From Fusobacterium ulcerans (lineage in GTDB: Bacteria > Fusobacteriota > Fusobacteriia > Fusobacteriales > Fusobacteriaceae), in NCBI RefSeq assembly GCF_003019675.1, contig NZ_CP028105.1, positions 1,814,282-1,878,281 of the forward strand: a DNA stretch of 64,000 bases. The letters run 5' to 3'. Below the pieces are notes generated by a model that saw nothing but the letters and a program-made list of their open reading frames with translations, ran no database searches and was not told the origin of the DNA. A program made the position numbers and the translations under genes. Positions 19,422 through 40,840 of this stretch are shown piece by piece (within the stretch, counting starts at the first letter, position 1; each line of letters starts with the position of its first letter).

Positions 19422-19844
19422 ATGCAGTATAAAAGTAAAGATATAGCAAAAGCTTCAGTTATAATGGCTATGAGTTCAAGAGAGGAAGAAGCAGAACTTA
19501 AAATAAAATATTTAGATTCAGGAATAAAAACAGCTGCTGTAGATATAGGAGGAAATGTTGTAGATTCTATCTCTAAAATATTGGAGAGAGCTCTGGTAGC
19601 ATCTAAAAGAAATGGAATAATATCAGAATCACATATATATGAAGGAGCTTTGACAGGAGCAACTAGAGAAGCTATAGCACAGATAATGGATAAAGCAGTT
19701 GGATTTAATGTAGGAGGAAAAATAGGAATTGCAAGATGTCAGGAACATCTTTCAGTATGTATTTTTCTTACAATAGGTATGTTCAGACTAGATGAAGTAG
19801 TAATAGGGCTTGGTCACAGAGCAGTACCAATAGATCACGAATAA
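19422..19844 (+). CDS. HutP-family RNA-binding protein
   Basis: A 140-residue protein of the HutP family. In Bacillus HutP is an antiterminator that binds UAG-rich RNA when L-histidine and Mg2+ are present. The segment EGALTGATREA (residues 74-84) lines up with the HutP EALHGVTRG region, with Arg82 at the ligand-binding arginine. The C-terminal LSVCIFLTIGMFRLDEVVIGLGHRAV matches the family's beta-sheet core. The frame is open from a TTG at 19407, but AGAGGTG before the ATG at 19422 decides the start. Directly downstream lies a leader with two UAG-rich blocks and a terminator before an ABC operon, a likely target. Confidence 0.78.
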   Translation: MQYKSKDIAKASVIMAMSSREEEAELKIKYLDSGIKTAAVDIGGNVVDSISKILERALVASKRNGIISESHIYEGALTGATREAIAQIMDKAVGFNVGGKIGIARCQEHLSVCIFLTIGMFRLDEVVIGLGHRAVPIDHE

Positions 19845-19852
19845 AATAACGG

Positions 19853-19881
19853 TTGACAAAAGTGAGGATTTTTTATATAAT
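19853..19881 (+). promoter_or_regulatory. perfect consensus promoter of the TrpXYZ-like operon
   Basis: TTGACA (19853-19858), a 17-nt spacer and TATAAT (19876-19881). Transcription should begin near 19888. This leaves a leader of about 215 nt before the first gene. Confidence 0.93.
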
Positions 19882-19898
19882 CATCATTAATAAAATAT

Positions 19899-19969
19899 GT
19901 AGAATTGTAGAATAGTAGAAATTGAAGAAGAAATGAAAAACAGTAGAGTAGAATTGTAGGATAGTAGGA
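19899..19969 (+). promoter_or_regulatory. duplicated UAG-rich blocks in the leader RNA
   Basis: A 22-nt element occurs at 19899-19920 and 19948-19969 with two or three A-to-G differences. Each copy starts GTAGAATTGTAG and carries UAG triplets at the same offsets: 19900, 19908, 19913, 19916 and 19949, 19957, 19962, 19965, plus one more at 19944. Bacillus HutP recognises UAG/NAG triplets, so these are candidate HutP-like binding sites upstream of the terminator at 20036-20069. Confidence 0.65.
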
Positions 19970-20035
19970 AAATTTAATACTTTGTAGCAGAGTCACCTTA
20001 TTTTTAAGGGGGATTTGTTGTATTATGTTTATTTT

Positions 20036-20069
20036 ACCTTTTTACAATTTTATGTAAAAAGGTTTTTTT
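20036..20069 (+). terminator. leader terminator (attenuator) before the TrpXYZ-like operon
   Basis: ACCTTTTTACA (20036-20046) and TGTAAAAAGGT (20053-20063) form a perfect 11-bp stem with a 6-nt loop and T7. It lies 33 nt before the first start codon and downstream of the operon's promoter, so it can only act as an attenuator. A small hairpin CCTTA-TTTT-TAAGG sits at 19996-20009. Confidence 0.88.
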
Positions 20070-20102
20070 AATTTCCTCATCAATAATAATCAGGAGGAGA
20101 GA

Positions 20103-21074
20103 ATGAAGATGAGAGTAGGACAGAGATTAATAATGATGGTGATAATGTTTTTAGTTATAGCAGGAGTAAAGAGTAATGCACAGGAAGGAAAAAAATTTAA
20201 AATAGGTATTTCACAATTTGCAGAACACCCAGCATTAGATGATGTTAGAAGAGGTTTTGAAGATGAATTAAAATCTTTAGGGGTAGAGGCAGATATAACA
20301 TATAAAAACTCACAGGGAGATACTGGTGTAGCTGGAGTAATAGCACAGAAATTTGTATCAGATAAATCAGATCTTATTTTTGGAATAGCAACTGTATCAG
20401 CTCAGGCTGCTAAACAGTCAACTGATAAGATCCCAGTTCTTTTCAGTGCAGTAACAGATCCAGTAAATTCTCAACTAGTAAAAACAATGGATAAGGTAGG
20501 AGGAAATGTAACAGGAACTACTGATGCAACTCCTATGGAAAAACAGTTGGAACTGTTTAAGAAAATTAATCCTGAAATTAAAAGGATAGGAATAATATAT
20601 AATACAAGTGAATCAAACTCAGAAATCCAAGTAGCAAATGCAAAAGAAATAGGAGCAAAATTGGGACTTGAAATAAGAGCTGTTGGTGTAAATAATATAA
20701 ATGATATACCTCAGGCTGTAAATTCTCTAGTATCTAAAGTAGATGGATTTTACACTATCACAGATAATATAGTTGCTTCTGCTATAAATCTTATCTCTAT
20801 GGCAGCTAATGAAAGAGGATTGGTAACAGTGGGAGCAGAGGAAGCTCATGTAAAAGGAGGAATACTTTTAACAGATGGGCTTAGCTACTATGAATTGGGA
20901 AGACAAACTGGCCGTATGGCTAAAGAAATACTTGTAGATGGAAAGAAACCAGAAGATATGCCAGTGGAAACATTGGCTAACACTACTAAAGTAGTAAATG
21001 AAAAAACAATGAAAAAACTTAAATTAAATAAAGAGCTTCCAGTTTTTGAAGGAGCAGAGTTTATAGAACAATAG
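20103..21074 (+). CDS. ABC transporter substrate-binding protein (TrpX-like)
   Basis: A 323-residue protein of the ABC_sub_bind (PF04392-type) family. Residues 1-26 are a signal peptide ending in SNA. The family motifs are visible: KIGISQFAEHPALDDVRRGF near the mature N-terminus, VLFSAVTDPV near residue 120, and RIGIIYNTSESNS near 160. Relatives are predicted aromatic amino-acid importers (TrpX). The ribosome site AGGAGG precedes the ATG. The operon is attenuator-controlled and lies beside a HutP-like gene, so the ligand may instead be histidine or another amino acid. Confidence 0.85.
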   Translation: MKMRVGQRLIMMVIMFLVIAGVKSNAQEGKKFKIGISQFAEHPALDDVRRGFEDELKSLGVEADITYKNSQGDTGVAGVIAQKFVSDKSDLIFGIATVSAQAAKQSTDKIPVLFSAVTDPVNSQLVKTMDKVGGNVTGTTDATPMEKQLELFKKINPEIKRIGIIYNTSESNSEIQVANAKEIGAKLGLEIRAVGVNNINDIPQAVNSLVSKVDGFYTITDNIVASAINLISMAANERGLVTVGAEEAHVKGGILLTDGLSYYELGRQTGRMAKEILVDGKKPEDMPVETLANTTKVVNEKTMKKLKLNKELPVFEGAEFIEQ

Positions 21075-33961: not shown

Positions 33962-33984
33962 CTGAAAATGAAAATTGAATAATA

Positions 33985-34112
33985 CCAAATCGCTTAGTTT
34001 ATTTTATTAAATAAAGCGGGGGAACCATTATTTTGGGGCGTATTTCCACTAGGAATAGGATACTTTTCAATCCGAGCCCGTCAGCTAACCTCGTCAGCGT
34101 TGAAAAGAGCCT
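33985..34112 (+). ncRNA. cyclic di-AMP riboswitch (ydaO/yuaA class)
   Basis: The conserved ydaO elements occur in order: AAATCGCTTAG, then AAAGCGGGGGAACC, then TTGGGGCG, and the 3' core CCCGTCAGCTAACCTCGTC followed by GCGTTGAAAAGAG. These match the class as I recall it from Bacillus subtilis ydaO. The ligand, c-di-AMP, signals high internal potassium and normally switches expression off. The element stands before a terminator and the histidine kinase operon, opposite kdpFABC, so a potassium link makes sense. Confidence 0.92.
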
Positions 34113-34126
34113 GGGTTTGTTTATTT

Positions 34127-40661: not shown

Positions 40662-40690
40662 ATTTATGTAGAGAAATTAAATAAAAAAAT

Positions 40691-40802
40691 TATCTTCAGG
40701 GCAGGGTGTGATTCCCGACCGGCGGTAAAAGTCCGCGAAGACCTTTGGTCTTGATTTGGTGCAACTCCAAAACCGACAGTATAGTCTGGATGGAAGAAGA
40801 GG
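40691..40802 (+). ncRNA. FMN riboswitch (RFN element)
   Basis: The conserved RFN segments are present in order: ATCTTCAGGGCAGGGTG, TTCCCGACCGGCGGT, GTCCGCGA, GCAACTCC, AAACCGACAGT and ATAGTCTGGATGGAAGAAGA. It precedes a terminator at 40841-40867 and the ribH-ribD-ribE-ribBA operon, so FMN shuts off riboflavin synthesis by transcription termination. Confidence 0.97.
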
Positions 40803-40840
40803 AAAGAAATCTTTTTTGATTGTCTTTTTTATGCTTTTAC

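Follow-up and report, generated by a model that had tools for sequence, protein, structure and literature searches.

A HutP-family protein and a UAG-repeat leader suggest TRAP-like repression of an aromatic amino acid importer in Fusobacterium ulcerans

The hutP gene, the leader and the importer genes

The window, that is, the whole 64-kb stretch of Fusobacterium ulcerans DNA analysed here, contains a gene for a HutP-family RNA-binding regulator, followed by a UAG-rich leader and the genes of an ABC importer, all on the forward (+) strand. The regulator gene (19422–19844) encodes 140 amino acids (19422–19841) plus the stop codon. A Pfam profile search matched the protein to PF09021 (HutP) with 154.6 bits against a cut-off of 25, over the full length of the profile (1–128 of 128). 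It is the sole HutP found in a search of the 3.54-Mb genome. With the single 140-aa protein as query, phmmer did not recover the HutP structures, and a sequence profile matched them only weakly; the structural assignment to the family was therefore decided by the predicted fold. The AlphaFold model, which represents the monomer, has a pLDDT of 92.4, and its sole Foldseek matches at E ≤ 0.001 are HutP crystal structures. The VIA Z values against HutP structures are 15.5–18.1, and the next family reaches 8.3. Judged by the full-length profile match and the predicted fold, the protein is a member of the HutP family, which bears out the initial annotation of a 140-residue HutP-family gene. A hexameric state would be expected by homology.

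In B. subtilis HutP, His73 and His77 together with His138 are the ligands of the Mg2+ that holds histidine. In the profile alignment (hhalign), Gly75 and Gly79 of the window protein align with His73 and His77, and both glycines are invariant in 62 of 62 relatives. His138 lies beyond the hhalign alignment and by eye stands opposite Glu125. The B. subtilis reference sequence used for the alignment differs in one residue from PDB 1vea. With glycine at the positions of His73 and His77, the window protein appears not to share the histidine/Mg chemistry of the Bacillus type. The Arg82 initially noted as kept is present; its counterpart in B. subtilis HutP is Met80, which is no ligand residue.

Between hutP and the importer genes lies a sigma-70 consensus promoter (19853–19881). 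It starts nine bases past the hutP stop codon and consists of TTGACA (19853–19858), a 17-nt spacer and TATAAT (19876–19881). The leader contains ten UAG triplets, which start at positions 19900, 19908, 19913, 19916, 19944, 19949, 19957, 19962, 19965 and 19985. Nine of them fall in two blocks, as initially counted for a duplicated element, and the one at 19985 is additional. Block 1 (19899–19918), which is conserved in relatives, is made up of the triplets at 19900, 19908 and 19916 with a period of 8 and an extra one at 19913. Block 2 (19944–19967) shows the same period at 19949, 19957 and 19965 and also holds the triplets at 19944 and 19962. Both blocks read UAG-N5-UAG-N5-UAG, a regular period of 8 with one additional UAG, and it is the extra triplet inside the block that produces the offsets of 8, 5 and 3 first described as unlike a regular spacing. 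Like a Bacillus-type site, the leader has NAG triplets grouped in two clusters of three (19900/08/16 and 19949/57/65). None of 5000 dinucleotide shuffles of the region 19885–20035 gave two period-8 UAG triples, and the UAG count by itself is mildly unusual there (P 0.014 in dinucleotide shuffles). When the 64 kb were scanned for GTAGAATTGTAGNATAGTAG with up to three mismatches, the two blocks were the sole matches, with 0.04 expected. The leader continues into an intrinsic terminator (20036–20069), whose hairpin (20036–20063) has a perfect 11-bp stem (ACCTTTTTACA/TGTAAAAAGGT) and a 6-nt loop and whose run of seven T residues spans 20063–20069. The perfect promoter and the perfect terminator of the initial annotation are thus both confirmed. 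A T-box, named at the outset as a possible alternative controller, or another Rfam element was found neither in the window leader, even at E ≤ 1, nor in the related leaders. Elsewhere in the window, an FMN riboswitch (40688–40805) and a c-di-AMP riboswitch (33981–34114) are located.

The importer genes encode a substrate-binding protein (SBP; PF04392, 20103–21074), an ABC permease (PF02653, 21096–21986) and an ABC ATPase (PF00005, 21952–22728), all three as assigned by Pfam. The SBP reaches 273.7 bits against the TrpX equivalog, below the cut-off of 390, and a tryptophan importer by name was rejected on this ground. Its residues Glu246 and Tyr262 correspond to Glu263 and Tyr279 of CD0873 of C. 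difficile, which set the tyrosine specificity of that protein, while the equivalent positions are Ala/Tyr in a phenylalanine binder and Ala/Gln in a tryptophan binder (PMC6816091). The window SBP is accordingly predicted to be of the tyrosine type. Of the TrpXYZ-like importer initially annotated, the SBP-permease-ATPase composition stands; the TrpX identity is not upheld by the score or by the specificity residues. The tyrosine importer protein CD0873 is the closest solved SBP, and the paper describing it (PMC6816091) makes no mention of HutP control. The trpXYZ genes of Streptococcus suis likewise encode a leader-controlled aromatic ABC importer with an SBP of the same family, but their sensor is a tRNA-binding T-box (PMC9382623).

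Conservation of the UAG motif and its co-occurrence with hutP

A scan with the HutP alignment yielded at least 560 relatives, of which 80, mostly from Clostridia, were kept. The same gene order, hutP and then the importer, was found together with the UAG motif at no fewer than 45 clostridial loci. The clostridial leaders contain 40 period-8 UAG triples in 14.9 kb, compared with a single one in the 567 kb of DNA that flanks them, and 8 is the commonest offset of their UAG pairs. These counts, together with the shuffles and the 64-kb pattern scan, rule out a chance cluster of UAG triplets. UAGs are situated around the Shine-Dalgarno sequence and the start codon at 38 of the 38 clostridial SBP starts examined, where GGAGGATGGTAGTATGGTAG or a close variant forms a second element spanning both; the alignment of start codons has two other rows, Sebaldella and F. 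mortiferum, outside this count. At L197 and L203, the sequence CCCCCATACTTACC just 5′ of the SBP start is partly complementary to the UAG block, and control by pairing of the leader with the Shine-Dalgarno sequence may be possible at these two loci.

In the phylum Fusobacteriota, hutP was detected in 52 of 98 genomes. Of the 52 genomes with hutP, 18 contain an exact match to TAGNATNGTAGNATNGTAG, versus 1 of the 46 without it (Fisher P 2e-5). An SBP orthologue (67–100% identity) is present in 11 Fusobacteriota genomes, and all 11 have both hutP and the UAG leader. The UAG blocks thus persist where both genes are present, the comparison that the initial annotation had proposed as a check. The window genome belongs to the same genus group as G022. 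In G023 and G029 the UAG-led importer is located apart from hutP, and proximity therefore does not explain the pairing of gene and motif. In family f4, the UAG element is found at the Shine-Dalgarno sequence of the first SBP gene, apart from hutP, in seven hutP-bearing genomes, and it adjoins hutP in four (G087–G090). Such a UAG cluster is absent from 17 SBP/importer leaders of genomes without hutP. Some hutP genomes (genus g14 and several Clostridia) have no clear importer site, and G039, a genome that is 93% complete, has an exact site with no hutP detected. No relatives were found on plasmids. Conservation and co-occurrence support the claim, made from the window alone, that the HutP homologue acts together with the UAG leader in control of the importer, and a link of protein, motif and importer is very likely.

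Several further arrangements were observed in the course of this comparison. In G050, G051 and G052 (L065, L066 and L060), a UAG element lies just upstream of hutP at the Shine-Dalgarno sequence of the gene itself, which may indicate autoregulation, and a threonine-aldolase-like gene is located downstream. Four loci of the HutP-bearing genus g14 (L034, L037, L038 and L039) have a UAG-dense leader before an amino-acid permease gene (PF13520), with a spacing partly unlike period 8. G042 (L036/L267) encodes a different, Bacillus-like HutP with the segments HALLHAS and GLGVMHI, and the gene stands beside citrate/oxaloacetate-metabolism-like genes and not beside hut genes.

Regulon content and the candidate effector

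The motif is not restricted to importers. Sites were found before the DAHP synthase gene in Leptotrichia-type genomes and also in G039/G040; amino-acid transporter genes, among them those for AGCS and NhaC, likewise have sites in front of them. A further site, with a weak score (E 0.12) and in the single genome G046, is located at the trpD Shine-Dalgarno sequence within the trpEGDCFBA operon. Several matches of the motif model with E > 0.1 inside unrelated coding genes were left uncounted. Control of hut genes was not found; the targets are importers, DAHP synthase and trpD, and they support the initial view of a regulon other than hut. In various genomes hutP adjoins aroQ, the chorismate mutase gene aroH, the DAHP synthase gene aroF or trpE, the last of these at L191. 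The target genes and the neighbours of hutP therefore share the theme of aromatic amino acids, and an aromatic amino acid is a likely effector of the protein. The suggestion that the ligand is other than histidine is supported as probable by these targets and by the change of His73 and His77 to glycine.

Which of the aromatic amino acids would be sensed is indicated by the importers. The Glu/Tyr pair is found in nearly all SBPs that have a UAG leader; in two, both clostridial, Phe replaces Tyr. The paralogous importer of the window genome is preceded by a Trp-rich leader peptide and has no UAG leader; the residues at these positions in its SBPs are Val/Tyr and Thr/Asp. In G046, the two residues are Glu/Tyr in the SBP with a UAG leader and Val/Gln in the SBP that follows a Trp-rich leader peptide. 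Glu/Tyr SBPs occur also in some genomes without hutP, and the pair is therefore not proof of the ligand of the regulator. At the level of sequence, the Glu/Tyr pair supports tyrosine as the cargo of the SBP and, by inference, as the effector too; tyrosine in particular is the effector that we favour, with modest confidence. The same mechanism with tryptophan, phenylalanine or any aromatic amino acid as ligand in place of tyrosine would accommodate the trpD site within the trp operon, the trpE gene adjoining hutP at L191 and the sites at DAHP synthase, an enzyme common to all three aromatic pathways. This alternative is rather unlikely in view of the tyrosine-type residues of the UAG-controlled SBPs and of the Trp-rich leader peptide that takes the place of a UAG leader before the paralogous importer of the window genome.

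Leader peptides of this kind were seen at several loci. Short open reading frames such as MMNRFTWWWQNRLHKFNTRQVDQVLS and terminators precede paralogous SBP operons at L232 and L255 (own genome, G000:C1 ~582720–583350, minus strand) and also at L233, L234, L224, L225 and L237, which points to a Trp leader-peptide attenuator in Fusobacteria. At L240 (G050:C40:12250–12900), a short open reading frame with a tyrosine run, FAYWRNDYYYYYYGSRIFV, lies before an SBP operon and may belong to a tyrosine leader-peptide attenuator.

Predicted RNA switch and comparison with Bacillus HutP and TRAP

In the predicted folding of the window leader, the first part of block 2 (19948–19961) is paired with 20040–20053. 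These two stretches would form the 5′ and 3′ strands of an antiterminator, and because the 3′ strand overlaps the 5′ arm and the loop of the terminator, the two structures are mutually exclusive. The computed P(terminator) is 0.00 for the free leader; it rises to 0.96 if the UAG blocks are constrained to stay single-stranded, compared with 0.04 if the constraint is put on other stretches. Six of the eight Fusobacterium importer leaders are predicted to switch likewise, and those of G020 and G035 are not. In some of the other Fusobacterium leaders, the control constraints raise P(terminator) too (0.22–0.79), and the window leader shows the effect most cleanly. In three leaders of NhaC-type transporters, holding the UAGs raises the value to 0.98, from about 0.25 in two of them and from 0.64 in the third. 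The antiterminator is conserved in relatives, and the antiterminator and terminator strands are nearly invariant. Most clostridial leader terminators are predicted to be stable whether the UAG block is held open or not. Folding thus lends no support to an attenuation switch in the clostridial leaders, and control of translation is the firmer reading there.

HutP binds UAG triplets in single-stranded RNA (entry title of 1wmq). Since block 2 pairs with the 5′ arm of the terminator, a protein that keeps this block single-stranded would favour termination, and since the clostridial UAGs lie over the Shine-Dalgarno sequence and the start codon, a protein bound there should block translation. The predicted folds and the start-codon motifs make repression the likely direction of control, and the antitermination initially proposed is not supported: the UAG block is itself the predicted antiterminator strand. 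It could be argued that the amino-acid-loaded HutP homologue prevents termination on the UAG leader and so induces the importer, as at the Bacillus hut operon; B. subtilis HutP is known to act by preventing terminator formation (PMC7430163), and in Clostridia the leader is predicted to form the terminator by default. This is improbable, because the UAG blocks precede the terminator and base-pair with the 5′ arm of its stem, because UAGs at the Shine-Dalgarno sequence and start codon suggest repression, and because uptake and biosynthesis genes as targets argue for feedback repression by the amino acid. The UAG element might instead be bound by a TRAP-type protein, by a T-box tRNA or by some other protein, with hutP a mere neighbour, which would suit the U/GAG triplets read also by TRAP (PMC7430163). 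This is very improbable, as TRAP (PF02081) occurs in 0 of 98 Fusobacteriota genomes and is thereby ruled out as the UAG binder in this phylum, as the leader has no Rfam match, and as the motif tracks the presence of hutP even where the two are unlinked.

We propose that the HutP-family protein, as a putative hexamer, takes up an aromatic amino acid as its ligand (L-tyrosine being the most likely one) and would then bind the two leader blocks of three period-8 UAG triplets each. The bound protein would keep block 2 single-stranded and unable to pair with the 5′ arm of the terminator; the terminator would then form, and the importer would be off. Under shortage of the amino acid, block 2 would be free to pair with the arm, no terminator would form, and the importer would be transcribed. 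The role of the protein in Clostridia and Leptotrichia-type genomes is probably to mask the UAGs at the Shine-Dalgarno sequence and start codon and so to block translation, either in addition to attenuation or in its place. The protein would thus be a feedback repressor, TRAP-like in action and built on the HutP fold. We regard this explanation as a whole, an aromatic-amino-acid-activated (probably tyrosine-activated) repressor of the importer, as fairly probable.

The window protein has the fold and the Pfam family of Bacillus subtilis HutP, and differs from it at two Mg ligands, which are histidines in B. subtilis. The Bacillus protein controls hut, whereas the targets of the window type are genes of uptake and aromatic biosynthesis. 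The Bacillus site lies within the terminator that is disrupted, and the title of PDB 1wrn places it in the terminator region; the period-8 sites of the window type are located either upstream, within the antiterminator strand, or across the Shine-Dalgarno sequence, with a predicted polarity opposite to that of Bacillus hut. The logic is shared instead with TRAP on the Bacillus trp leader, where protein on UAG triplets prevents the antiterminator; in the window, by computation, the paired UAG strand excludes the terminator and the open strand allows it. The aromatic theme is also common to both. The TRAP sites for translation control at trpE and trpG overlap the Shine-Dalgarno sequence and block translation, like the clostridial UAG sites. 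The TRAP protein is unrelated to HutP, and it is an 11-mer that binds 11 triplets spaced by 2–3 nt (PMC7430163), compared with three triplets per block at period 8 in the window leader.

No description of this system was found in the literature searched, which left most subscription journals outside, and a published account may exist. Repression of tyrosine uptake at the RNA level by the HutP family is not described in that searchable literature, and the evidence presented here suggests such a role. A broader reading, to which we lean only slightly, is that a large HutP branch of Clostridia and Fusobacteria no longer depends on histidine and now serves these phyla as a tyrosine (aromatic) repressor with a period-8 UAG code, acting by attenuation and by covering start codons. 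If this is true, the name of a histidine regulator misleads for most of the relatives counted above, and the control of aromatic uptake and synthesis at the RNA level in Clostridia and Fusobacteria would become testable through one short motif. A small RNA-binding fold would have changed its ligand, its targets and its regulatory sign while keeping its triplet code, and would be an independent counterpart of what TRAP does for tryptophan in Bacillus.
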